Source: Owenia fusiformis
Taxonomy: Eukaryota; Annelida; Polychaeta; Sabellida; Oweniidae
Direction of reading: 5' to 3'
Length of the DNA stretch: 64,000 nt
Assembly: GCA_903813345.2 (NCBI GenBank)
Contig: CAIIXF020000003.1
Coordinates: forward strand, 6,595,815-6,659,814
In this document: positions 40,901-63,953 of the stretch, in pieces
Layout: each line of letters begins with the position of its first letter
How positions within the stretch are numbered: position 1 is the stretch's first letter
Translations under genes and position numbers: made by a program
Notes under the pieces: generated by a model
Seen by the model: only the letters and a program-made list of their open reading frames with translations
Databases searched by the model: none
Told to the model about the DNA's origin: nothing

Positions 40901-43900
40901 CACAATTTTGTCAATCAGTTGAAACATAAAGGTGCTTCACATTGTTTGTGATGTATCTTTGTCTTTGTGTTAAGTACCTAGCTTTTTTGTGGCATGATTA
41001 AATTAGCTAAAATTGCATTTTTAGTATTTTTCCAATGTACAGTTCAAATTTTGGAAAAATTAAGAAAGTCAATCTTTTCAGGCCACTTAGATGGAGAAAA
41101 ATGTCTTACAACCCTGCGCTGGAAAGTTTGCCTCAAGTTTATGCTTATTCCACACTGAAACTCAATCATTGTGCGAATTGTGAAGTAATAAGTGAAATAC
41201 AATAAAATTTGTCTTAGTGAACACCTCTCTCTAGTGAACACCTGTCTCTTGTAGACAACCTTGCTCCACACAATGACTTCTGTATAAGTTACCCTCTGTA
41301 CTTAACACCTTCGAACACTGACATTTTTTGCGGCAAAAAATGTTCAACATACACAGTTTTACTGTACTTGTAAATAAAAAAATGACAAGATAGCAAATAA
41401 AGGTTAATCATTTTCAACTACAAAGAATGATTCCCTTCATGACATGTTTGCATGAGGTTCATTAGTCTTTTTCCTCTGACTTTGTAGTTTCTCTAAGCCT
41501 TTGTGCTACAATTATTGCAATCACCGATGACGCCTATCTCTAGGTTAAAAATAAAATGCCATTATGGCGGTTATATCTTCACACAGTTGAAATCAATTCT
41601 TTTACTCTGCTGCCTCGTAACATGAGGGTCACTTTAACCCAAGCTTTGTACAATTCACTCATGGTCTATTGGTCATTTCATCAATTCACTTGATAATTTG
41701 TTAGAGGTTTCTGAATATAAGCCATTTCTATGTCATTTCGAATGTTGTCGCCATATCTGTGTTCTAACTCCTTGCTAATTTCACTCTTTTTCAGCTAATT
41801 TCAAATTTGAAAAGACTGCCATGATTATATTCTTGTGGGTTAATAATTCACTTAATGATCTTGCTACTTGCCCCGGAATTCTGATTTCCTCTCATTTTCG
41901 CTCATTTCCTTGATTTGACTCTTTTTTTCTTTGATGTTCATCTTTTCATTTTTTCAGTTATCTGTGAGAATTAGAAAATTGGCAATTAACTTGTTGGCCT
42001 AAGTGAAAGAACTGAGTTGAAAATAAGATTTGGTTTGTTCATAAGTTTTCCCATATTATAAGTATTTACAAACAGCCATTCAAGCGGAATGTTGCTTTAG
42101 AAGAAATATTTAGTGTAAATTACCCAATAAACTACAATTTCAACACCATCAAGTACAAGTTAGCCTAGCTACAAGACCCTGTGACCCCCCCCCCTACTTG
42201 ACTAAACACCTCCTCACACAGAGGGGAGGTATGTAGGGGGGGGGGGGGGGGGCAAGGGCTTGGAGCTAGACTAAGTACAAGTATATGAGTATACAGTAAA
42301 ACCTGTATATCTGAACACCCTCTTAAATGAACACCTTTTCTCTGTCTCAAATTTGTAATCTCCCATTGACTTACATGTTAATAAAATCTAGAAATGTGAA
42401 CACCTGCTAATCTGAACACTTTTGGTTGCTCGTAGACTCGTAGAGGTGTTCAAAAAAGACAGGTTTTACTGTAGATGGAATCTCAGATTGCTCCCTCAAT
42501 CATTCAGTTATTTTAAGGTTAATATTTTTACACAAAACAATACATTAACCCCTCTTGGGAAACATAACAGCATAATTTATAGAGTAATAGATTTGATAAT
42601 AATCATATTTAGGGGGCTTATAATGATTCCTTATGTGGGACCTTTGCTCTTGAGTCAGACTCTGAAGTGTAAGACATACAGATGAGGAAGTCCATGTAAC
42701 AAATGTTATTTGAAGTGTTCTGTATGAAAGTTGGTCAACTAAAGTACATTTGAACTATTCTATGTGAATGATGGTCCATTGAAGGCCATATATTTGACAT
42801 ATTGCATGTGAAAAATTAGCAAGGCTTTTTAATTATTTTATGCGAAAATTAGCAAGGCAATAATTGAAGTGTTCTTTGTGAAAAATCAGCTAAGGCAATA
42901 ATTGAAGTGTTCTTTGTGAAAAATCAGCTAAGGCAATAATTGAAGTGTTCTTTGTGAAAAATCAGCTAAGGCTATAATTGAAGTGTTCTTTGTGAAAAAT
43001 CAGCTAAGGCTATAATTGAAGTGTTCTTTGTGAAAAATCAGCTAAGGCTATAATTGAAGTGTTCTTTGTGAAAAATCAGCTAAGGCTATAATTGAAGTGT
43101 TCTTTGTGAAAAATCAGCTAAGGCAATAATTGAAGTGTTCTTTGTGAAAAATCAGCTAAGGCTATAATTGAAGTGTTCTTTGTGAAAAATCAGCTAAGGC
43201 AATAATTGAAGTGTTCTTTGTGAAAAATCAGCTAAGGCTATAATTGAAGTGTTCTTTGTGAAAAATCAGCTAAGGCTATAATTGAAGTGTTCTTTGTGAA
43301 AAATCAGCTAAGGCAATAATTGAAGTGTTCTTTGTGAAAAATCAGCTAAGGCTATAATTGAAGTGTTCTTTGTGAAAAATCAGCTAAGGCTATAATTGAA
43401 GTGTTCTTTGTGAAAAATCAGCTAAGGCTATAATTGAAGTGTCCCATATGTAAGTGATCAATCAAAGGTTACAATTGAAGTGTTCTTTGTGAAAAATCAG
43501 CTAAGGCTATAATTGAAGTGTTCTTTGTGAAAAATCAGCTAAGGCTATAATTGAAGTGTTCTTTGTGAAAAATCAGCTAAGGCTATAATTGAAGTGTCCC
43601 ATATGTAAGTGATCAATCAAAGGTTACAATTGAAGTATTCTATGTGAAATATGACCTGTAGATGCCTATATTTTATAAATTCTCTATAAAAGATGAAAAC
43701 AAAAGTTGCATTTTAAGTGTTCTATGTGTTTCAGGTGATGACCCCCCAAGTCCAGGAGGAGCCATTCTACCCCCTTTGATATACGACAATGTCCCAAAAA
43801 ACTGCTGGAATTTTACATATGGCAATCCTAAAAGTCGTGTCTTCTACAGTCCTGGGTATCCTAAGGATTATCCCAATAACACAGAATGTATGCAGGTTTT

Positions 43901-46900
43901 AATCGGTATGTATTGTTTGTGTATTTCTTTGATGATTGTGTTTTATCCATAATGACTTCATAACCGATTTTGTTCAAAGGACGATTCTCGGTTTGGAGAA
44001 CGAAGTTCATCAATCTAAATGAGCATTATCCCTGCTTCGGACAAATTTGATATTTTTACATAATATAGATTTGAATGTCTTCTTTTGAAAAGTCATAATT
44101 TAATTTGGGTAATATTTCTAGATTTTTTGCAAAAAAATATTAGCGCAGTACACTGATGAACTTCTTTCCCCAAATCGAGACTTGTATTTTATTGAATCGG
44201 TCTAATTGAGCGTTATCCCTGCTTCAGACAAATTTGTTATTTTTACATCTTGTAGATTTAAATGTCCTCTTTTAAATATTCATAGTTTAAGTTGGGTAAT
44301 ATTTCTATATTTTTCATAAAAAAAATTATCAGCCCAGGAGACTGTTCTCCAAACCGAGAATCGTCCTTTACCTAATGTGTTGTGATAGAGAATAGATAGA
44401 GAAAAGGACCTCTGCTTGAGAAGAAATCTCTAATATGACTGCTTATTTCAAAATGGCCAACATTAAAAAAGGCTGATTAAGTTTCAGGTTTCTCAAATGA
44501 TTTAGATTTAGATGTAATTCTTTCAGTACTGCATGATAAGAACTATGTCTAGGTGTAATTTAATTATTCAAAATATATTTAAGTTTTTCACTCATATACA
44601 CCAAAGATATTTGGGGGAGTCTTGCACAGAATTTGCTGCTGCGGTGGCGAGGACTGGCATTCTACGAAATCACCCCAGTGATATATCTAGTTCTCTAATG
44701 CAATGTCTTCTTAATTCTGTGAGTTTTGTCCAAATTCTTAGAATCGTCTCGATGCAAATGTTCGTTGTATGTAAGTGAATATAAAGTTGAGGTGTAGGCT
44801 GGTTGAATTACATAGAAAAACATAGAGGCAAAATTAGATCTACTTTACTTCAATAAAGGCAATTTTATCTGATACTGTAGAATCTTCACAAACATATATT
44901 GACAAGCATTATTACTTTATTATATCCTATAAATAAATCATCAAAGACGCCGTGCTAAAATGCATCAGATAAAATGAAGCTTAATTTGCATAATCAAAAA
45001 TACTACAAAAAGTAATTGTGATTCAGAATCTACTTAATCAAATCCATATGTTTGTTTGAATTGAACTGAGAAATCCAATGGAATAAGCGTGATGAGAGAA
45101 GCGTTATTTGACAGAGCAATAAACTAGCAAAGCTCAGCCTGATCTCTCGTGGCGACACTTTGCTCCGTACAAATTACCCCGGGGAGGGTTAGAAACTATT
45201 TCCTTGCATGATATCCTGTCCTTAAACATTCCACAGAAATTATGCAAATTCAACACTTTTTCTTCCTGGATATCAGATACCTCTTCATTATTTCTACCTA
45301 ATTATTTTAATGAATGAATAATTGCTTAACATATTTTTAATTTCTCACGTTTTGTATCATATTGACACAAGAAACAATTGAGCATGTAGGATGTTTTGTG
45401 AAGGATATTGTATCTTCAACATTGCAATTTGTCTTAATTGGCTGAGTTGCGGTTTATAGGCCTAATATACTTGTTGATGTACTATTTTATGGCTATTAGG
45501 TCTTACAAAGAATTCAATTAATTTTTTAAGACCTCCCACTCAGAATAAAAGAAGCTACTGTCTTTAGGTTCCTATAATTTGCAGCAGAAAATCAAGTTAT
45601 AAAATATTGTACTTAAGAAATATAGACCAATTTTGCAAAATTATCACTTCATTTCCTACTTCTGGCTTGCACTGAAACGTTTAGTACAGACCAGGTATTG
45701 TATTGATGAATAAATACCTGGTGAAATATTGACTTTGTTCACAGTTAACAGAAGACATGAATACACAGTCATGTTCGAATCCAGTTCAAGACTTGATTGA
45801 CAGTTCTAGTTTTGCACCTTCCATATATGGAAGTGAAAGTAATGACAATGTTAAATCTTCAAGGTCAAACTGATCTTATATCTGTTAAGACAGTCAAAAA
45901 ATAGATTTTGTCTGATATTGGTCATTTCTATTATCACATTTCTCAATTCAAACATTTAGAAACTGACCTTTCAAATCATCGATATTTGTCTATCTAATAT
46001 CAGTTACATTACTTTAAGATATTGTACATGTATTCAGATAACTTCAATTTATTTTTATGTATCAATCATTTTATTTTGCATATTCAAGTCAAGTCAAAGA
46101 AATGATGAGATTACAATTTCAATGTCTGTTAAGATCCTGTTATATTTTGAATAATAGAGCAAGATTGATCAATAGAGTGAGCCACAAGAATCTGATTGAC
46201 CCATAATTCATATTTATATGATTTACAGCTCCCAAAGGCTATGTTGTCCAGCTGGACTTTCGTGATAAATTCCATATTGAGTCTCCAGAAAACTCTCAGG
46301 ATTGTGACTACGACTACTTGGAGATCAGGGATGGCCCATATGGTTACTCAAATCTTAAAGGTAATATTTGGGGATACTCAAATCTTAAAGGTAATAATTG
46401 GGATTACTCAAATCTTAAAGGTACAAGAAGTTCTATGGTCACTTTAATAGGAGTACTCAAACTTTAAAGTATATGGTCTTTACAGATTGAAAGTTGTAAT
46501 ATATACTTACTCAAATCTGAATGGTACAAGTTAACATGATTTCTAGTTCCAGAAATTATAATTTTTAATTAGCAATTAGATTTTTCAAATTTTAAATCCA
46601 TCATTTGAATATATTAGGTGTGTACTGTGGTCGGACACATCCTCCACTGTTGACGTCAACATCCCGCTATCTCTGGATACAATTTATGTCAGATGCTACC
46701 ATAGAATATAGTGGCTTTAAAGCGGTATATGACTTTGTGCGAGACCCCAATGTTGAAGGTATGTGTCTTTAGAAAATTTCATGCCTTTTGAGTTTTATTT
46801 TGTAAATATAGAAACTATTAGATGTAAACATGGGTATTGTTTATAGAGGCTGTACCTAGGAAGGGATTGTATATTGGGTTTATTTAGAGGAATGAGATGA

Positions 46901-49900: not shown

Positions 49901-52900
49901 TTTACGTTGTAAAAAGTGGTGTTGCTTAACCTCTCTAATACCTTAATTCAATACCTTAACCATAACAGTGAAGTCAGGCTTGTATCTATGCATCATTCAA
50001 AAACAAATTCCATTTTATAAAACATGGCTGACAGATTTTCCTTAAGGAGTCTACAGTTTCTCCTTAAGGATGTCTAGCTGAGATGCTTTTCCTTTGGAAG
50101 ACAAATGTTGATACTGGCAAATGCATTGCAACTCTCTGAAACCAAAAAATACTTTCCCTAATGGTAATGATGATTACCCATGAAAGCACAGATGCAAGAC
50201 TGAATTCCATTTCTATTATAACATTTTTACCATTTGTTTGTATTGTTTTTGCGTTTCACCTACAGTAATAGATGATTCAGGTTTGTAGTTTAGAACTCCT
50301 TCATCAAATCATTTATCAAGTTTTTACATCACCTTTAAACTCCAAATCTCACACTTTGCCAATAATGGGAAGGGGAGAGGGGAAAACTTTTGCATAGGGA
50401 TATATTGTGTATCAGGTTTAGAAAGAATTATTGTTGCCCATTGCTTTCAAAATATAAAATGTCTATTGTTAGATGATAACTGTCTATGCTTATGTATGTT
50501 CAATGTTCCTCCTCCATTGTTGTGTCTTGTACGTTATAAACATGTTTTAAGCTCCTGATTAAGTTCAACGCACTTTGGAGAATATCTCATATCCCATTTG
50601 AAATCCCGTAGAAGATATAATTTATATTGTTATCTACTAAGTATATATTCTGTCAAATCATTGTTTTGTAGAATAGTTAACTTTGTGTTTTGTAGATTTT
50701 GTTGTTTTGTCCCAGGGCTCCCACCAGGAAATATTTAGGGTGTGGTGGAAAGATCTTCACCATAACCGTTCATTCATGATATCATAAATAGTTTTTATGT
50801 TGTTATATTTTATCCCTTTACATGCTATTATTGTGTATTTAATCAATTTTAGATTGTGGAAACAATCATGATTTGCCAATAGGTTGTGGTGGGAGCTTAA
50901 TAGACTGTGGTGCTGCACCACAGTCTAAAAGCATAGCGAGAGCTCTGTGTTGTTTAAACTTGTGTATAAATGGGCAACCAATATATTTTCACATTGAATG
51001 AAAAATATACATTGGTGTATTTTGCATATGTGTCACTATTACACCCTGACTTCTGTAACTGCACAAATGCACATAAATATTTGGGTAGCACATAAATGAA
51101 ATAATTTTGTATCTAGTTTGATGAATTATATTCTAAATACCATACTCAAAACTTTGAATATTTAAAAAAGTTCATTATGATTTAAGAAGTCAAAATTGTG
51201 AAAGAAGGTGTATTAAAATTGCCATCCATCCACTTTCTAAATATTCATAATTTCATATTGTTGTAAATGGTTCATAATTATACCAACAAAATGTACTTGA
51301 TATTATGCATCCACCTTTTTGATTGAACATTTTTTTGTTTCCAGTTTGCCGCATTGAAATCAACACAGCTAGGTTCTCTGATGGCTTTGTATCAAATGAT
51401 GACATTTCTAATGTAATCAGGAAAAAGACTGACAATTTTTACACCCCCCTGGACTGTACATGGGAGTTCCATGTTGCCCCAGGGAATAAAGTGAGTGATG
51501 AAGAGTTACAGAGGTAGTACCCATTCCAGTTTTGAATTAGTAGCACCAGAAGTAGTACCCATTCCTTGTCATGACTATGTACATTGAGGGGCTCTACTTG
51601 TGGCTCTGTTATGGCCTATGTTATTGGCCTTATCTTGTCCACCATTGAATAATTATTCAATCTCCTGTGAAATATTCAGTTATTCGATGACATTGGACTC
51701 TATATGGAGAAAACTGTCATCTCAAAAGAAAAATTACATGAAATAATGGAGATGATTTTGTAGAAATATTTTGCAATGTGTGAAAAGAATTTAAGCCCAA
51801 GACTCAATGCATTGTAGCTGCTTCACATTCCACTCAGGCATTGTTTCCTAAAGTTTGCATTCCCGCTGCGCGATCATGCAAAGATTTGGAAAAAACACCT
51901 CCTTGGTATGATTCAGCAATTTGGGCTTTTACAGTATACAAACATTCTTGTTGCAGGTGCATCTAGACTTTGTCGAGTACAAATCCAGTGCGGGCATTTG
52001 TGGGGACAGTTACTTGGCAGTATATGACAGTTCCACCTCTGAGAGCCACAAAGGGGAGTCCATATGTGGGGGACAGCCTAAGCCTTTTAAATCACGCAGC
52101 AATGTGGTGTATCTCCGCATGTTTGCCAAGAATAAGCTTATTGAGCCAACGTTTAAGGTTCTATATTCAACATTTAGTTATGGTAAATATATTTGTATAT
52201 TTTTTTTGCCTGATCTATTTACTACCCCATCCTTATCCATTCTGAATGTTATTGGGTGAATACTTGATCCAAGTGAACACCATTTCTTGGAAAATAATGG
52301 ATGATTTTCTCAAGTTGTATTTTAGCAACATCACCTTCTGGTTTGATGCATTTTGCAGCTGTTGTATTTCCATGTTCACATTATAATTTCTTAATATTAC
52401 TTCCATTCATTTTGGCAGTTTTAAGAACTTCTGCGAAGGCCTTGTCACTATACACAGATTTTAGACTGTATGAGGAAAATAATTTACATTTATCTGTGAT
52501 TGAATTAGCAAATAAATGATTCCTTTCTTTCTTTCATGTAATTAGCAGATTTTGTCAAAAGTACTCATTTTAGAAAACATTATTGAACCATTATCACCAA
52601 TGTATGTACTTCATGTATATTGCATGATGTTCGTAGCACTATGAGAATAAATGAAAGTGGCAAAGCTCACTTCCTTTCATATTGTAATTTGTATCTTCTC
52701 TTGCATCGAGAAAAGTAATCATGTTAACCTTTATGTTACAGCACCTTGCAAAGAAGACCAGTTCCTCTGCGGAGTGAATGTGTGTTTCAATAATAGCCTC
52801 AAGTGTAATGATCGCCTCAACTGTCCTGATCCTGACACACTGGAGGAGACTGCCTGCATGAGGGCCACAGATGGTATGTCAAATGTTTCAATTTCACAGT

Positions 52901-55542
52901 AATTCACATACATTATACATGTTTTTTTCATTGAAAGGTTCACATTGATAAGTTAATGAGTTTAAGAATTGGTTCAATGTCCACTGATCATGCCCAATAT
53001 GAAGCCATAGTCCCCATCTATAGTGTGAGAGTTACGGATGATTTTAGCACTTTGGAGCTTAAAAGATCTTAATGGTTTCCAATGTAGCTTACATGAGCCT
53101 CTATTGGATTTTCAATGATATTAGTTTTATTTATATGATTCAGGTTTCAGTACAACACCAGGTATGATAAACAATCTAAACATTCCCTAACACTATGATA
53201 CATTTCCTTAAAATACCCTTAAAATGTCTAATGAACTCAGAATTATATTAACCACTACAAACACTGGGTGTTCAATAAGTTTTCATAATAATATTTTAAA
53301 GTTGACATGTTACATACAAGAGTGCAACTTTCAGTGATAATAGATTAATAGCTGCCCATTGGTATTAGTTCAATCCATATTTGGAAAGCATTTTTATATT
53401 AAATTTAATGTTGTATATTTTTTCTAAGACAAGCTTATTATTTTCTCTTAAAAAAGTATTATTATTAGAAAACATTGAACACCCTAGATACATTCTCACC
53501 CAATAATTGTATATTTAAATATGTTATACTTCATACAAACTTTTATACTTTTGTCAACATACCTCCTTATTTTCAATTTAATATACAATTACTTCATTCC
53601 ACCAACTTCCTACTGTACATAGAAATACATAATGTGATACATCTTTTAATAATAGGCACATGGGGTATTCTTTGACTATTATGTAGGTGTTAAAGTGGCA
53701 GCAAAAGATGAAGAGAGTGTAAAATGTTGATCATATATGCTAATTGCTAAGATACCAAAAAATGAAAGCAATTCCAGATTGAAAATCAATTAAATTATAA
53801 GATAGTACAAAGTAATGTCGTCAGAATAAAAAAGTTGTGACATTTTTTCAAAATATATTATTCAAGTTTTCTCGGTCTTTTGTTGCCCCTTTATCTATCT
53901 GTCCCATGTTATAGTTCACCGATTTAACCATAATGTAGGTTTGGATATGGGGAAAATGAAATTGGATACTAATATTATTAAGAATCTAAAAGTGGATAGT
54001 TTATCGATATTATGGATATATAGTTACTCAGTAATATAATACTCACAAATACTTTCCTGTTTTTGAAAAAGGGATATTTTAGTTTTTGAAATTGAATCAT
54101 CTTTCCAGTGGTTTACAAGCAATACTGGAAATATTAATAACAGTCTTTAATACATAATAAATTTGGGGCACCCTGTAAATTACAGTAGATAATATGTCAT
54201 ATTATTTATTTCAGAGCCTAGTACTGCTGGTATAGCAGTAGAATATCATGCTGTAATCCTGGGCTGTGTTGGTGGTGCCCTCTTTACAATAGTTCTTGTG
54301 GCTCTTATCGTGACGTGCCATCAACGAAGCAGAGACCGAGAGCGTAAACGGAGATTACATATCAATGAACTTCGTAACCAATTAGAGATGGATGCCTTGC
54401 TGAATCAGTCACCTCAGTTACCAATGGGGAATAACATCGGAAACCATGTTGGTAATAGGCCAAATGGTCGCCATAGTGTCAAAAGTGATATTGAAGAGAG
54501 GGAGGTTGGTTACCATGGGAACCATAGTAACCATAAAACAAAGACTGATATTGAGGCTACAGTGCTTTATGATTATCCATTGGCTGCTTCCACTCCAGGA
54601 CCATCTGTCTCTGGGGCTGCAGCAGTGCATTACCCTGGTTACGAGGGCTCATTGAAGCGTAACCATGGTAATGAATCATCCCTCAAACGTAACCAGGGTA
54701 CAAAAGGAAAGGGAATCTTAAGAACTTCAAAAACAGAAGGAGATATACATGGTAGTAAATCTAATCCCAGTATTCATAACCCAAGTGCCCCAAACACCCC
54801 AAAGGGTAAGCGTACCAAGAAGGGCACACCTAAACTGGACAGGTCCATGAGTGAAGATGCAGCAAAACGTCTTAGTTACCATGACAACCAGGAAAATGGT
54901 GTTGCTCAAGTTTCCCCAGAGCGTGAAAACCATCGCCATTCACAAAGCTTTACTGTGCATGATTTCAATGATCCTCATGATATTATTAAAGGATATGAGA
55001 CAAAGTGCATAGGACATGACAACGACAGTGATGATATAGGAATTAGTGGAATTGCATCTGCTAGTAAACCCTTAAGCTCAACACTACCCAGGTCTAATTC
55101 TAAGCCAATAACACCCAAAGCAGGCACACCTAAAAGCAACAGGGCGACTCCATCAAGAGAGGAGAGCTATAAGCAGAAAGGGAATAAACCCAAACCTGTT
55201 AATTGCCCAGTTGCCCCCGAACTCATCACTAGACTTCCTCAAGTAAACAATCAGAATAGCAAAGGCAAATATAATGCAGATCCAAGCAACACTATAATTC
55301 CTAACTCGGATTATAAACCAACTAGTAATCTCAGTAATCATACCATAGGTAACTCTGGACGATCAGCTCGAGAGAAAAGTCCCAGTCCTCGGCCTGATAT
55401 CGTCCTCGCAGACCATTTCACACTAGCTTCGCCTAAAATGGGACACAATAAACCTAAGCCCAAACCTGTGGCGCCCCCTAGATCCCCAGAGATTAGAATA
55501 ACAAGAGCGCCACCTACTAGGTATATGGATGAACAGGTTTGA
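16868..55542 (+). CDS. Neto: Neto-like CUB/LDLa transmembrane receptor (whole gene, spliced)
   Basis: Exons: 16868-16943, 43735-43905, 46229-46360, 46618-46758, 47176-47208, 51345-51490, 51957-52182, 52742-52873, 54215-55542. Joined they give 2385 nt, 794 residues plus stop, with matching phases at every junction. Domains: signal peptide 1-21; CUB1 about 49-165 (four Cys, DGPYGYS motif matching DGPFGFS of vertebrate NETO); CUB2 about 186-306; LDLa 311-347 with six Cys; transmembrane helix 365-387; cytoplasmic tail 388-794. This order is diagnostic of the Neto family, auxiliary subunits that bind ionotropic glutamate receptors of the kainate class at synapses in vertebrates and flies. The tail is longer than the roughly 160-170 residues of vertebrate NETO2, is rich in Ser, Pro, Lys and Asn, and carries a PxxPxR SH3-type site (PVAPPR). 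It ends in DEQV, unlike the TRV end of vertebrate NETO. An acceptor directly before exon 1 implies an upstream noncoding exon, not located. Family call firm; function in this animal is inferred. Confidence -1.
17270..17315. repeat. Solo pogo-like end
   Basis: TATACAGGTTTCACTGTACATG matches the right end of the pogo-like MITE family; no left end found. Confidence -1.
17527..17690. repeat. Two-copy tandem duplication, about 90 bp
   Basis: ACTGGGGAGT...CTTCTGATAAACCCAATCT and the following TCTTCTCTCTTCCT occur twice in tandem with small differences. Confidence -1.
18100..18990. repeat. Minisatellite, mixed 24-bp and 16-bp units
   Basis: Units GTACAGTGCATGTATGTATT+AGGG and GTACAGTCTATTAGGG alternate in a higher-order pattern over about 0.9 kb. 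Confidence -1.
20147..20300. mobile_element. Small repeat with GCCCGTAGCC start and C runs
   Basis: AGGCCCGTAGCCTGCGAGGG followed by CCCCCCC runs, of the kind of short dispersed element common in marine invertebrates. Related in style to 23588-23803. Confidence -1.
21880..22176. mobile_element. CACTA-like MITE with 3-bp target duplication
   Basis: Ends CACTGTTCC...GGAACAGTG with about 50-bp inverted repeats (GCAGTTAGCTTCATTCAAGA in both), flanked by ATA at 21877-21879 and 22177-22179. CACTG ends plus 3-bp duplication fit the CMC (EnSpm/CACTA) superfamily. A second, inner palindrome with about 30-bp arms (CTTAGAATGACTCTAACTGA...) spans 21943-22022. Confidence -1.
23588..23803. mobile_element. 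Small repeat with G run and GACTACGCCCC end
   Basis: Opens with a G-rich run and closes CTGACTACGCCCCTGCAT, i.e. GGGGCGTAGTC on the other strand. Probably a non-autonomous element; superfamily unknown. Confidence -1.
23895..24240. repeat. Diverged tandem duplication, about 200 bp
   Basis: GATCTGTTACAAATAGG and AATAAAAGGGAAATAATG at 23910-23970 recur as GATCTGCTACAAATGGG and AATAAAAGGGAAATAATA at 24109-24167. Confidence -1.
25942..26079. repeat. 75-bp tandem repeat, left part
   Basis: Units with CATATATACAACCTTTAA and CTACAGAGTGATTAATTAGA. Continues at 26912-27130 after an element insertion. Confidence -1.
26080..26911. mobile_element. 832-bp non-autonomous element inserted at TTAA
   Basis: Ends AGTCCCCGTCTAAAGTTT and AAACTTTAGATGGGGACT are inverted repeats, flanked by TTAA at 26076-26079 and 26912-26915. 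TTAA targets are used by piggyBac and Kolobok elements. No transposase. The surrounding tandem units keep ACCTTTAAATAGAAC uninterrupted, showing the empty site. Confidence -1.
26912..27130. repeat. 75-bp tandem repeat, right part
   Basis: Resumes exactly at the TTAA with AAATAGAACAACTACAGAGT; two to three further units. Confidence -1.
27500..27616. repeat. 76-bp tandem repeat, left part
   Basis: Units containing ATTAAAAAGCTCCTGGAATT, GGGCATTCTTAAACATAAGC and ATCATTGCACTTTTGATTAT. Interrupted by the piggyBac element and resumed at 33741. Confidence -1.
28283..28296. promoter_or_regulatory. RFX X-box-like motif 1
   Basis: GTTACCATGACAAC, one mismatch from the palindromic RFX X-box. Sits in the left part of the piggyBac relic. 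Confidence -1.
28441..28454. promoter_or_regulatory. RFX X-box-like motif 2
   Basis: GTTACCATGGCAAC, a full match to the RFX X-box consensus GTTRCCATGGYAAC, 158 bp from the first. Function not known. Confidence -1.
29716..29960. mobile_element. Hairpin MITE nested in the piggyBac relic
   Basis: TTCTATTGAGGTTGAATACC...CTTGTGAAAG forms the same hairpin as 298-425, followed by a block that matches 785-905 in inverse orientation (ATTGATGTCTAATTAATCAT). Confidence -1.
30245..30494 (-). pseudogene. piggyBac transposase fragment (DDE_Tnp_1_7-like)
   Basis: Minus strand reads GKNFTRDRFQLLLRFWHMNN, then NPYIKVR; after a one-base shift LDFYVQREFCHNTLHENIAL and IAGLVSMSKR. This follows the family pattern MSRNRFxLLLRFxHFNDN ... 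KVRPLIDxxNxxF ... ENIAxDEGLVPFKGR. The first catalytic Asp position of the family (IDE/LDE) reads IAG here, so it is dead. A CATTATAG acceptor-like sequence precedes it. Confidence -1.
33330..33419 (-). pseudogene. Probable N terminus of the piggyBac transposase relic
   Basis: An ATG at 33419 opens MAALDLNDDGSDF; after a one-base shift it continues ESLFDSDSDLSGVRSKSDDD. Acidic, Ser-rich N termini are usual for piggyBac transposases. Position and strand fit the fragment at 30245-30494. Confidence -1.
33622..33729. repeat. Subterminal palindromes of the piggyBac element
   Basis: AAAGCCGATCTCATCGGCTTT (one copy) and AGAGCCGATTTAATCGGCTC (two copies) lie within 120 bp of the right end; the other end lacks them. 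They may be transposase-binding repeats. Confidence -1.
33741..33835. repeat. 76-bp tandem repeat, right part
   Basis: Resumes at TTAAACATAACCAAATCATG and continues ATTAAAAAGCTCCTGGATTT. Confidence -1.
34090..34760. repeat. Degenerate 22-bp repeat with an internal inversion
   Basis: Units like GAACATTGGATATAATCTTT. At 34450-34490 the units run in the opposite orientation (AAAGATTATATCTAATGTTC), making a hairpin. A leftover stretch of the same repeat lies at 38380-38520. Confidence -1.
35088..35505. repeat. Inner long palindrome of the 2.96-kb element
   Basis: Arms 35088-35285 and 35303-35505, centred on a 17-bp loop. The arm tips CTAAATATTGGGTGCGGAG reuse the AAATATTGGGTGCGG motif of the outer ends, so inner and outer palindromes are related. 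Confidence -1.
35513..37630. repeat. CCATGG palindrome tract
   Basis: Dense repeats of CCATGGTATACCATGG, ATGAAATACCATGGTATG and GCATTTGATGG. From about 36780 to 37480 they form tandem units of roughly 110 bp; at 35666-35885 they form another palindrome around TACTGCCGTTTCGCAGTA-type arms. Open frames here are repeat artefacts. Confidence -1.
38380..38520. repeat. Remnant of the 22-bp repeat of 34090-34760
   Basis: AGAAGATTGGATATAATCTG and similar units, isolated from the main array by the 2.96-kb element and about 0.5 kb. Confidence -1.
39136..39633. mobile_element. 498-bp CpG-rich element with TA target
   Basis: Perfect inverted ends ATGGCCTAGTCACATAGCCC with flanking TA (39134-39135, 39634-39635). 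Strongly GC-rich in an AT-rich region, with many short CCGGCCG, GAGCTCGGTG and CACCGAGCTC repeats. No coding capacity. TA duplication fits a Tc1/mariner-type or similar element, not certain. Confidence -1.
40242..40316. mobile_element. 75-bp internally deleted copy of the 378-bp MITE family
   Basis: Both ends (TATCCTGTGTGCAGG and AAATGCAGAGGTTA) match the family, the middle of about 300 bp is gone. Flanks GTCTTTCAG and GTCTTTAAG agree at 8 of 9 bases, so it is an older insertion. Confidence -1.
41215..41361. mobile_element. Pogo-like MITE, degraded copy
   Basis: Right end ATACACAGTTTTACTGTA; left part has AGTGAACACCTCTCTCT repeated after 17 bp. Left terminus not found. Confidence -1.
42160..42273. 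mobile_element. 114-bp hAT-like MITE with 8-bp target duplication
   Basis: Inverted ends TTAGCCTAGCTACAAG and CTTGGAGCTAGACTA, flanked by AGTACAAG at 42152-42159 and 42274-42281. The middle has C and G runs that pair with each other. An 8-bp duplication fits hAT. Confidence -1.
42294..42471. mobile_element. Pogo-like MITE, well preserved copy
   Basis: Ends CAGTAAAACCTGTATATCTG and AAGACAGGTTTTACTG, flanked by TA on both sides. 178 bp, starts 13 bp after the hAT-like MITE's target duplication. Confidence -1.
42846..43650. repeat. 38-bp minisatellite before Neto exon 2
   Basis: About twenty near-identical 38-bp units built around TTGAAGTGTTCTTTGTGAAA and AATCAGCTAAGGC, alternating two variants (GCAATAA and GCTATAA). 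Near the 3' side a longer variant with CCCATATGTAAGTGATCAAT occurs twice. Very low divergence indicates recent expansion. Confidence -1.
43735..43905 (+). CDS. Neto: Neto exon 2 (linker and CUB1 first half)
   Basis: Encodes a Pro-rich linker (GDDPPSPGGAILPP) and the start of CUB1: KNCWNF, then YSPGYPKDYPNNTECMQVLI, which matches the SPNYPxxYPxNxEC pattern of NETO CUB1. Acceptor TTTCAG and donor GTATGT; phase 1 at both ends, 171 nt. A 38-bp minisatellite ends only about 90 bp before this exon. Confidence -1.
43976..44369. mobile_element. 394-bp MITE in Neto intron 2
   Basis: Inverted ends AAAGGACGATTCTCGGTTTG and CAAACCGAGAATCGTCCTTT. The inside is a direct duplication of about 190 bp (GAGCATTATCCCTGCTTCGG / GAGCGTTATCCCTGCTTCAG). 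No clear target duplication. Confidence -1.
44370..46228 (+). other. Neto: Remainder of Neto intron 2
   Basis: AT-rich intron sequence; no further exon, RNA gene or repeat recognised. Confidence -1.
46229..46360 (+). CDS. Neto: Neto exon 3 (CUB1 middle), with alternative ends at 46390 and 46420
   Basis: Starts after ATTTACAG and encodes APKGYVVQLDFRDKFHIE, then YDYLEIRDGPYGYSNLK. The first donor, GTAATA at 46361, gives the length expected for a NETO CUB1. The last 19 nt plus the donor are repeated twice more, giving further donors at 46391 (GTAATA) and 46421 (GTACAA). Each step is 30 nt, in frame and without a stop, so use of the later donors would add 10 or 20 residues to a CUB1 loop. Confidence -1.
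46342..46420 (+). repeat. 30-bp tandem triplication across the Neto exon 3 donor
   Basis: Three copies of TACTCAAATCTTAAAGGTAA-type sequence; degraded fourth and fifth copies near 46450 and 46507 lack usable donors. Confidence -1.
46618..46758 (+). CDS. Neto: Neto exon 4 (CUB1 end)
   Basis: Encodes VYCGRTHPPLLTSTSRYLWI, then QFMSDATIEYSGFKAVYDF. This is the C-terminal part of CUB1 with its fourth Cys (YCG), and it aligns with [20 protein letters not shown] of human NETO2 as I recall it. Acceptor ATATTAG, donor GTATGT, phase 1 to phase 1, 141 nt. Confidence -1.
46867..46933. repeat. 67-bp hairpin in Neto intron 4
   Basis: Arms TTGTATATTGGGTTTAT and ATAAACCTAATATACAA (one mismatch), with ATGATATATCAT inside. 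Could be a very small fold-back repeat. Confidence -1.
47176..47208 (+). CDS. Neto: Neto exon 5, 33-nt microexon in the inter-CUB linker
   Basis: Flanked by TTTCTGTTTAAG and a strong donor GTAAGT. It is 33 nt long, phase 1 on both sides, and encodes GAVKDMSLNFT. In vertebrate NETO2 the same place, between the DPD after CUB1 and the first Cys of CUB2, reads GALKPLP, so GAVK fits well. It can be included or skipped without changing the frame. Too short to be found by an ORF scan. Confidence rests on consensus splice sites plus the family alignment. Confidence -1.
48140..49115. repeat. Tandem duplication of about 105 bp, one copy split by an element
   Basis: CAGTTTACAAGCCTTAATG, AAAATTGGTTGAAGTTAACA, CCAGAT, TGTTCCACTTGTCCTACC occur twice. 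The first copy is split at CCAGA|TA by 48214-48962; the second (49014-49115) is uninterrupted. Confidence -1.
48214..48962. mobile_element. 749-bp fold-back MITE with TA target, in Neto intron 5
   Basis: Ends CAGGGTGTTC and GAACACCCTG, flanked by TA (48212-48213, 48963-48964). The two halves are imperfect inverted copies about 370 bp long meeting near 48585. Mariner-like ends; no transposase. Confidence -1.
49223..49936. mobile_element. 714-bp MITE with AAT target duplication
   Basis: Inverted ends AGAGAGGTTAAGCAA and TTGCTTAACCTCTCT with GCAAACGTAAACC-like subterminal parts, flanked by AAT at 49220-49222 and 49937-49939. It sits inside a short tandem repeat (AATACCTTAATTC), which makes the flanks look duplicated over a longer distance. 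A 3-bp target is compatible with PIF/Harbinger. Confidence -1.
50713..50947. mobile_element. Possible MITE with CAGGGCTC ends
   Basis: CAGGGCTCCCACC at the left and GCGAGAGCTCTG at the right are partly inverted. GGTGTGGTGG and TTGTGGTGGGAGC occur inside. No clear target duplication; weak call. Confidence -1.
51345..51490 (+). CDS. Neto: Neto exon 6 (CUB2 first half)
   Basis: After TTGTTTCCAG it encodes CRIEINTARFSDGFVSND and later DCTWEFHVAPGNK, the opening of CUB2 with its first two Cys. NETO2 has ACEFEMGGSEG and DCKWYIRAPP at the matching places. 146 nt; enters in phase 1 and leaves in phase 0 at donor GTGAGT. Confidence -1.
51957..52182 (+). CDS. Neto: Neto exon 7 (CUB2 second half)
   Basis: After TTGTTGCAG it encodes VHLDFVEYKSSAGICGDSYL, AVYDSST, ESICGG and the final strands ending in YSTFSYG. 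The order of Cys and the AVYDGSSS-like motif match NETO CUB2. 226 nt, ends in phase 1 at donor GTAAAT. Confidence -1.
52742..52873 (+). CDS. Neto: Neto exon 8 (LDL-receptor class A module)
   Basis: One exon encodes one complete LDLa repeat: six Cys in the pattern CKEDQFLC, VC, LKC, LNC, AC, with acidic residues (DPDTLEE) before the last Cys in place of the usual calcium-binding SDE. Matches the single LDLa of NETO1/2. Phase 1 on both sides, 132 nt, donor GTATGT. Confidence -1.
53144..53161 (+). CDS. Neto: Possible 18-nt juxtamembrane microexon of Neto
   Basis: Between exons 8 and 9 lies ATGATTCAG, then 18 nt, then GTATGA. The 18 nt are phase 1 on both sides and would insert GFSTTP between the LDLa module and the membrane stem (EPSTAG), lengthening the protein to 800 residues. 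It is a splice-site and phase argument only; a chance match is quite possible. Confidence -1.
53268..54177. repeat. Possible decayed mariner-like remnant in the last Neto intron
   Basis: CTGGGTGTTCAATAAG at 53268 and GGGGCACCCTGTA at about 54165 have the look of mariner ends (TACAGGGTGCCCC inverted). No transposase motif seen between. A solo end of the same kind (TACAGGGTGACCCA) lies at 58949-58962. Confidence -1.
54215..55542 (+). CDS. Neto: Neto exon 9 (transmembrane helix and cytoplasmic tail)
   Basis: Acceptor TTATTTCAG ends at 54214. It encodes a short stem, a hydrophobic helix (residues 365-387, AVILGCVGGALFTIVLVALI), a basic stop-transfer segment (RSRDRERKRR) and a 407-residue tail. 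The tail has repeated SLKRNxG motifs, a basic KGKRTKKGTPK stretch, two related NKPKP-VAP segments, the second containing PVAPPR, and ends in DEQV. The stop codon is at 55540-55542. The open frame of more than 400 codons in AT-rich DNA strongly supports coding. Confidence -1.
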
Positions 55543-58794: not shown

Positions 58795-61700
58795 CTGAAA
58801 GCAGAGAAAACACACATTTAATTGCAGATATTCTACCAGACTTTCCAAAATAGAGCTTTCACTATATGGACCATGGGTACTTTATTGATAGAAAAATAGT
58901 ATTTTTTCTAATATCACCTACATCTGTTCTAGAACAGACATCAAATACAGGGTGACCCAAAATAATTTCATTTATCTATTTTCTGCAACTAATGAAAGAT
59001 TAAAATAATTTGCTTTTTATATAAATGTACATGTAATTTTAGTTGGTAGCAATCAGTTCAGAAAGTTTTTGTCTGTAGCCTTGATTTTACAGCCTTTCAA
59101 AAACCTGTTCCATCAATCTGGCTGCTGGCCCTAACACACCTAACCTCAAATCCAAGATATGTACATCTGGAGCTATTTGAAAAGCTGTCTTTGGAAACAA
59201 TTGAATAAAACCAGCTATGATAATGATATACTTGAAAAGTTTAAATAAATGAAATACAAGTGTCCATACAAATCAGTATTTATCAAACATGAGCTAATGG
59301 TTCATTTTGGACAAATTTCAGTTACAAACAGAGACAATGCTTTATCTATATCTAAAACTCCATGTACGCATTTTTCTGTATGCAACAGGGAAATACAGTA
59401 CCTTAATGCCCAATTTCTTCCTCCTATCGTGTTCTGGCTCAGCACACCATTTAAGGAAAGTACACACATCTTTGGCGAGCTGCGGTGTTGTTGCTGGGGT
59501 TCCTAGAATCATACATTGATGAATATTAATTCAACATTCATAGATTGGAAGATTCATAGATTTAGGTTGGTAGCTTGAACAGTTGTAATGTCAATCTGAG
59601 TAAGTAGTAGTAAATAGTAGTGTACAAATGCACACTAGGGAAAGCAAGAAATCCTTTATAAATAAACCACAGGAATTAAAAATTTCAAATTTCTGAAAGG
59701 TAGTCATATGTTCCATTGGTAACTACAACTTCAGTCTGTGTAATATCATATCCTTTTTGGACAACACCCATAACAGTACTCATGTTATCACAAAAAGGAT
59801 ACACATTTTATTCCATTGTTCAAGTAGACAACTTGAATGGCATGCGTCATGAGTCAGTCAACATTTCTTATTTGTTAGACATTTAATAAACACCGAGTAT
59901 ACATATCACACTTTTCATACATACAAGGGAGTATCATTTGAAACTTTACAATGTAGATATTACGCATGCCATCATAAGGTTTCAATATGCTTTTAAATTA
60001 AAAGTATTGGCAAAAATAGAAACTATTTATCGTTATTATTCAGACACCCAAGTTTTATTCGCCCCACTACAGAAACAATAGTTAAAGTGATTCCTGCATC
60101 ATCTGTGAAAATCTTATTGAAATCCATGGATTTACATAAAAGTTAGATCAATAAAAAAAATAGAAATATTTTTTGGCCCAACTTGCGAAATATTTATTTT
60201 TAAGCACAGTAAGTATTTCACAAGATTTATTATTTCCACTTACCATCTTCGTATTCAATGATCTCATTATATAAAGCCTTGGCCATACTGATTGCTCCAC
60301 CAGGGAAATATGGATTGAAGTATTGTCCCTCTCCAAGGTTAACTCCAGCTGGTACATCATCGCAATAGCAGGTTAGAAGATGGTAGACATAGTCCTGCAA
60401 TAGTGAATGATACAGTTAGCTAATGTAAAGTATGAGTGAGCTATAGTGAAATATGGGTTGAAGTATTGTCCCTCTCCAAGGTTAACTCCAGCTGGTACAT
60501 CATCAAAATAACAGGTTAGAAGATGGTAGACATAGTTTTTCCAGGCCCTTGGGTAAACACCTCATTTCAAAAATAATTTAATCAAGTCATCAAGTTAGAA
60601 TATTGCTAATATCTCCTGATTTGCCTTACATTCAAGTGGGTATAAGTGGGTTTTCAAATGGGTGCTAGGCTATCAGTGGGGAAATCTTGATTACAATCAG
60701 AAATTTTAACTCTTACCTCTTTCCCATGTCTTGCTGAGGTAATGAAACTAAGATCAGGGGGGTATGCCCCATTGTTTGCAGCTCGGGCAGCCTCCTCATT
60801 TGGATAAGGGTTGGGCATTGGATCTGACAGTTTGCCTGGTCTTTGGAACATTTCACCTGCTTCATTGGGGCCATCAGTGACTAGTGCCTACAATGAATGA
60901 ACATGGTTTTATATAATTGTTTTACTTCCTATTCTTGCAGCTTGAGGTTTCATTTTTACAGACATTAATAAGCTCTTTGTTTACAATTATAATACACTAC
61001 AAAGAAATTACAACTATCGAATGTACTATACATGAGGTACCTGCCACAATTTTACAGTGTACAAAGTAAATCATTCTACCTCTTGTGCCTCAGCCTTGGC
61101 CTCATCTTCCGTGTGAGAAATGCCAACCAGATTACGGTAGTTGATGTAGTTGAGACTGTGACAAGCTGAGCACACCTGTTTGTAAACCTCATAGCCTCTT
61201 CTTATACTGAAATATAGGGAATAAGACACTGAAATATAATACATAAACAGGGGATAAGACGACTGGATAGGCCCCTGTTTTCCAATACCTTTTTTGGAAA
61301 CATTTGTTAAAGAGGCTGGGACAATTAGTTGTCACTTCTTGGTAGTTACATGAAAAAGCAGAATTAGAAAAATTTCTAACTTTTGCTCTTACCTGCCATG
61401 GTCGAAAGAGTCTAGTGGTCCGCTGTGACTCCAGGGTAACTTAGGGGGATGCAGAACCAATTCTCCAGCTGTCACTGTTGAGTTAAGAGCTATGGCCATT
61501 CCAGTACCACCAGCAGCTAGGGCCCCTATAGCACCCAGGGCCTACAGCGAAAAAGAGAAAGTTTTTAAACATGGTACAGATGGTGCATGGTTAAGGGTAT
61601 ATCTGACAGCATAATTTTCATATTTTTCTAATGAAAGTTATTAAAATTATTTATTGGAGATATTACTAAGTACATGTGAACAAAGTATAATACTATCAAC

Positions 61701-63515: not shown

Positions 63516-63623
63516 TAAAATTTAAAACCAAAATATTACATTTTTGGCTTGTATTTATGTAAGTATATACTGCATCATTGATTGATATAGCATCGATGAC
63601 AGATAAACTATAGATATTACTTA

Positions 63624-63953
63624 TTGCAAAAAATCAGAAAATTTACGAATGTATTGACTGAGATTTTCACACGTATAGAGGATTTACAAATATGTTCAAT
63701 GAATCATTTGAATGTCCCAGTTGATGTCACATTGGTCTTCACGGATGGATCCACACTTGGCAATCCGGGCCCCAATGGATCAGCAGCAATAGTCTACGTG
63801 GAAGGTCTTGCAGCTGACCCAGTTTGTTTAAATAAACCCATCTCAGCAAAAGGCAACAACTTTATAGCTGAAATTTATGCTTTGCTGTTAGGTCTAGACT
63901 TCATACAGGAAATAAACACCAGCCAAAATATATGGCTATTCTGTGATTACTAA
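63624..63953 (+). mobile_element. Retroelement RNase H fragment, cut by the window edge
   Basis: The translation contains FTDGSTLGNPGPNGSAAIVY, then FIAEIYALLLGL and WLFCDY, the order and spacing of the acidic active-site motifs of RNase HI. The NPGPNG context is most like RNase H domains of non-LTR (LINE) retroelements, but an LTR origin is not excluded. No reverse transcriptase is visible upstream in the window. It looks broken, with only this domain present. Confidence -1.

Follow-up and report, generated by a model that had tools for sequence, protein, structure and literature searches.

A short tandem repeat with three in-frame candidate splice donors at an exon boundary of a predicted Neto gene from Owenia fusiformis

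A predicted Neto gene in the analysed window

The window, which is the whole stretch of 64,000 nucleotides analysed here, contains on its plus strand a series of exons that can be joined by their AG/GT bounds and their frame into one open product with two CUB domains, an LDLa domain, a transmembrane helix and a long tail. The product obtained with the first of the three splice donors described below (donor 1) matches Neto2 (7f56_E) over query residues 15-333 with an E value of 1.3e-48 and 169.3 bits, and this match covers CUB1, CUB2, LDLa and the transmembrane segment. Cubilin scores above Neto2 (180.4 vs 169.3 bits), but only via four matches to the same CUB. With the order CUB-CUB-LDLa-single transmembrane helix in place, the predicted gene is a Neto (neuropilin and tolloid-like) auxiliary subunit gene. 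The preliminary description of this DNA had named the gene Neto and had located the site of interest just before the YCG of CUB1, and both statements are upheld by the gene model and the Neto2 match.

The exon with the first part of CUB1 extends from 43735 to 43905 on the plus strand, which holds for all exons of the gene, and its donor TCG/GTATGT at 43906 was assigned using the gene model and the pairing with U1. Exon 3, for which we keep the numbering of the preliminary description, has a short form from 46229 to 46360 with phase 1 at both ends and ends with ...DGPYGYSNLK-G. Exon 4 (46618 to 46758, acceptor AG at 46616-46617) begins with (G)V-YCG of CUB1. Two CUB2 exons (51345-51490 and 51957-52182) and the LDLa exon (52742-52873) were placed by the gene model and the Neto2 match, and the transmembrane and cytoplasmic exon (54215-55542, stop codon included) by its open frame and the gene model. 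A possible micro-exon of 18 nt (53144-53161, coding for GFSTTP), proposed from AG/GT bounds and frame only, sits between the LDLa and the transmembrane exons, and the frame is kept with or without it. Further downstream, open frames on the minus strand at 60654-61331 encode peptides that resemble cytochrome c1 and may be exons of its gene, and the plus strand at 63600-63953 carries a presumably RNase H-like open frame, perhaps the remnant of a transposable element.

A tandem repeat across the end of exon 3

The boundary between exon 3 and intron 3 is covered by a small array. TRF reports it on the plus strand at 46345-46423 with a period of 30, 2.6 copies, 93% match, a score of 137 and a length of 79 nt. 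Its 19-nt core TACTCAAATCTTAAAGGTA, which consists of 16 exon nt and GTA, starts at 46345, 46375 and 46405 with 0 mismatches and a spacing of 30 nt. Copy 1 (46345-46374), copy 2 (46375-46404) and copy 3, which is limited to the core (46405-46423), each bear AAAG/GTA, and the corresponding GT donors are located at 46361 (donor 1), 46391 (donor 2) and 46421 (donor 3). The head-to-tail copies cover exon and intron bases over the donor, as expected for a tandem repeat across an exon-intron boundary. Direct reading and the repeat finders confirmed the three donors at 30-nt steps given in the preliminary description. Its further claim of an exact 30-nt repetition holds for the spacing and the 19-nt core, but the 11 intron nt recur in copy 2 only. 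With 46345 taken as the first position, copy 2 departs from copy 1 at 3 of 30 positions, all of them in the spacer, and copy 3 departs from copy 1 at 9 of 30, since the match of copy 3 stops at 46423 with the end of the core.

The exact 19-mer occurs three times in the 498-Mb assembly, in each case within the array. Allowing up to 3 mismatches, 161 forward and 168 reverse matches were obtained, and the backwards-read control gave 235 and 207. Because the near-matches do not exceed this control, the core is not a dispersed element, and a wider repeat family was rejected as well. A search of the window with Rfam returned no element at gathering scores, and a query of 251 nt found one place only in the assembly, with neither a second gene copy nor an alternative haplotype contig.

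Strength and reading frame of the three donors

Donor strength was calculated as the pairing energy with the 5' end of U1, for which we assumed the sequence. Donors 1 and 2 form duplexes of -6.6 kcal/mol and donor 3 one of -5.6 kcal/mol. These values fall inside the range of the remaining six donors in the gene model (-7.4, -8.7, -6.5, -5.3, -5.3 and -7.2 kcal/mol for exons 2, 4, 5, 6, 7 and 8, respectively). The plus strand of the window contains 3614 GT dinucleotides, of which 129 match or exceed donors 1 and 2 in strength and 259 match or exceed donor 3. At the level of RNA structure, the 9-mer of donor 2 is predicted to be the most accessible (0.119, compared with 0.021 and 0.012 for those of donors 1 and 3, respectively), which would weakly favour this donor.

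All three donors pair with U1 and leave the frame open, and in this respect they are candidate alternative 5' splice sites. Since the computed pairing is possible for each of them, competition between the donors is likely. Use of donor 2 would add the residues GNIWGYSNLK and use of donor 3 a further GNNWDYSNLK; the gene model thus agrees with the earlier statement that the steps keep the frame, contain no stop and add 10 or 20 residues. When 5' splice sites compete, the intron-proximal donor is often favoured, and such a bias would point to donor 2 or 3 as the main site and speak against a dominance of donor 1.

Decayed copies in the intron

Using local alignments scored against 2000 dinucleotide shuffles, we detected two further copies within the intron, both of them decayed, which start at 46454 and 46508 and are absent from the preliminary description. 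Copy 4 (46454-46469, plus strand) was found with the copy-1 query alone, matches at 14 of 16 positions (11 of 2000 shuffles equal) and contains a weak GT at 46469 (-4.2 kcal/mol). Copy 5 (46508-46530, plus strand) matches copy 3 and its flank at 21 of 23 positions (0 of 2000 shuffles equal) and contains a weak GT at 46524 (-4.1 kcal/mol); the flank GGTACAAG is common to copy 3 and copy 5. Both GTs are weaker than the donors of copies 1 to 3. A candidate sixth fragment of 12 nt within 46536-46617 is weak (42 and 17 of 2000 shuffles in two tests). Upstream of the array, at 46080-46330, no copies were found (1416 and 1475 of 2000 shuffles equal or better).

If the exon extends beyond donor 3, the first in-frame TAA on the plus strand is reached at 46465-46467, so that the GTs of copies 4 and 5 lie beyond the open frame; these two copies could therefore not yield a normal protein. 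As copies were found only on the intron side of the exon part of copy 1, the array appears to have expanded from the end of the exon into the intron, with decay at its far end.

The boundary and the length of CUB1

At the junction of exons 3 and 4, DGPYGYSNLKGVYCG of the donor-1 product pairs gap-free with DGPFGFSPLIDRYCG of Neto2. The donor-3 product contains at this position a 20-residue insertion without partner and reaches 144.0 bits vs 169.3 for donor 1. The C...CG segment of CUB1 comprises 24 residues with donor 1 and hence 34 with donor 2 and 44 with donor 3, and the added residues sit between both cysteines, which presumably form a disulfide. Among 18 other CUB loci, a small sample in which some loci overlap, the pattern matched in 5 and failed to match in 13, and the 4 distinct segments obtained have 24, 24, 26 and 24 residues. 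As donor 1 gives the canonical length of CUB1, copy 1 is likely the original exon end and donor 1 (46361) the likely ancestral boundary. The Pfam CUB scores are 93.5 bits for donor 1, 87.1 for donor 2 and 90.3 for donor 3 (the latter in 2 stretches); the scores of donors 2 and 3 do not follow product length, and this counts against the explanation that we prefer below.

Open frame, intact core and the minisatellite background

Duplications were simulated with intronic spacers and a random unit length of 24-59 nt. The unit was divisible by three in 6592 of 20000 simulations and additionally open in 4181 of 20000 (~21%); with the unit fixed at 30 nt, 16068 of 20000 were open. Because about a fifth of the simulated duplications keep an open frame by chance, the open frame gives no indication of selection. 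Copies 1 and 2 differ by three nucleotides, which hit two codons and alter both residues (I to N and G to D). These differences are distributed as 0 of 19 positions in the core vs 3 of 11 in the spacer (Fisher p = 0.041). Together with the intact core of copies 1 to 3, this distribution may hint at a retention of donors 2 and 3, but the core was selected post hoc for its identity.

Arrays with a period of 10-100 and a TRF score of at least 100 occupy 5354 of 160000 bases (3.3%) in a sample drawn from 5 contigs as 16 pieces of 10 kb each (523 N included), and 4838 of 64000 bases (7.6%) in the window, the donor array included. Minisatellites are thus common in this genome, which counts against a selected role for the donor array. 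Genomes of this kind contain very many introns, and in combination with common arrays some arrays over splice sites are to be expected. Donor-like motifs (AGGTRA or AGGTRNG) were searched on one strand of the arrays; they were present in 0 of 32 TRF rows of the sample and in 1 of 29 of the window, and this single window array corresponds by its unit to the Neto array. A minisatellite with a 38-nt unit, about 20 copies and 95% match is located at 42845-43597 and ends about 137 nt upstream of the Neto exon at 43735.

The surroundings of the 18 other CUB loci were searched with margins of 60 nt before and 150 nt after the CUB match, taken on the strand of the locus and not of the gene, and one of them (L024) has an array with a score of at least 100 near the match. 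In L024 a minisatellite of six 45-nt units (1203-1481) begins about 9 nt into the intron after the CUB exon, which lies on the minus strand of the locus at about 1491-1686 with a donor set by sight. The 45-nt units carry AAGGTGGGT-like motifs on the gene strand. On the opposite side of this CUB exon a 23-nt array is located at 1706-1785.

Discussion

The explanation that we prefer, and to which we give about an even chance, is a neutral array of donors born by slippage, in which donor 1 would dominate and donors 2 and 3 would see some in-frame use. In the order of events that we infer from the copies, slippage or unequal exchange would have tandemly duplicated the unit at the exon 3/intron 3 boundary, consisting of the exon end and the donor. 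At least four copies of the unit would have been added in this way, in the direction from the exon to the intron. The two outer copies would then have decayed, and the three inner ones still show complete in-frame donor signals. The main splice site is probably donor 1 (46361). Donors 2 and 3 would act as competitors and probably give rise to minor isoforms in which the CUB1 loop before YCG is longer by 10 or 20 residues. We regard the array as most probably neutral or mildly tolerated.

A fixed extension of the exon, in which donor 3 or donor 2 is mainly used, CUB1 of Neto is longer by 10-20 residues and copies 2 and 3 are coding, appears possible but rather unlikely. It would agree with the frame that is open through donor 3, with the identical core of all three copies, with the predicted accessibility of donor 2 and with the intron-proximal bias in the competition of 5' splice sites; in addition, copy 3 may preserve the old intron start, as its flank recurs at copy 5. 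On the other hand, donor 3 has the poorest U1 pairing of the three, its product scores 25 bits lower against Neto2, none of the 4 CUB segments from 5 of 18 loci, a small sample, is so long, and the 3 nucleotides in which copy 2 departs from copy 1 alter both affected residues. A functional length switch, towards which the preliminary description leaned with its suggested changes of receptor length and copy number, would mean that the choice of the donor tunes CUB1 and with it the way Neto pairs with kainate-type receptors, and that the copy number differs between individuals; this is in our view unlikely. The chance expectation of ~21% for an open frame and the lack of an excess of silent changes between the copies speak against it, although three in-frame donors of similar predicted strength are available. 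CUB1 of Neto2 is reported to contact the receptor (PMC12580572), and a 15-residue splice insert in the amino-terminal domain of GluK1 alters the modulation by Neto (PMC11540303), but the latter parallel concerns the partner protein and not Neto itself. An extended form of this idea, in which the minisatellite would work as a length dial with one more donor and 10 more CUB1 residues for each copy, so that the length of Neto would change stepwise across individuals or tissues, seems quite improbable to us.

Two other readings carry far less weight. An assembly error in the copy number is highly unlikely: the array is known from a single assembly, but copies 1 and 2 have distinct spacers, the flank of copy 3 is a different one, two diverged copies follow downstream, and the array is just 79 nt long. 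Intronisation by AGGT duplication after the model of Rogers, in which the copies would supply AG and GT for short introns between them, has hardly any probability. The 30-nt intervals are far below the usual size of animal introns, and the expected CUB junction is obtained with a single intron that uses the acceptor at 46616-46617, so that a new intron is not needed. In favour of this model are the AAAG/GTA in every intact copy and the 24-nt AGGT repeats with introns across them that are reported for fission yeasts (PMC4974935).

Several known systems can be compared with the Neto array. In human genes within recent segmental duplications, tandem repeats at boundaries alter splicing with transcript support (PMC2812944). 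The Neto array is similar in that a tandem repeat lies over an exon-intron boundary, and it might likewise alter splicing and coding length and vary in copy number; in contrast to the human paralogs, it consists of 30-nt units over a donor and is known from the genome sequence alone. The AGGT tandem repeats of fission yeasts are located in coding sequence, and a boundary-crossing duplication is described for the RdRp of potato (PMC4974935). With the repeats of the Rogers model the Neto array shares short tandem copies in coding sequence, each with AG/GT, but the Neto duplication occurred at an existing donor, multiplies donors and implies no new intron. In Drosophila, intron sliding or novel intron positions were inferred across species (PMC2891723). 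There, the boundary of an existing intron can move via competing sites close by without loss of the frame, as might also happen in Neto; the candidate alternative sites of Neto, unlike those of Drosophila, are repeat copies in one genome. In intron 4 of DOK7, factors favour the proximal or the distal donor (PMC5585400). Two close donors compete in this case, as the candidate donors of Neto may do, but the DOK7 donors are 11 nt apart, shift the frame and have a measured use, whereas those of Neto are 30 nt apart, in frame and predicted. The Neto array can be added to these known cases of boundary repeats, AGGT repeats and boundary shifts.

The reported contacts of Neto2 CUB1 with the A and C subunits of GluK2 (PMC12580572) would offer a possible functional setting. 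If the later donors are unused, the array would be a record of exon ends that were copied into introns and then decayed. If they are used, a minisatellite would supply equally spaced, near-identical in-frame donors as a natural case, and the choice of the donor would become measurable in a near-constant context, in a CUB1 domain that contacts glutamate receptors.
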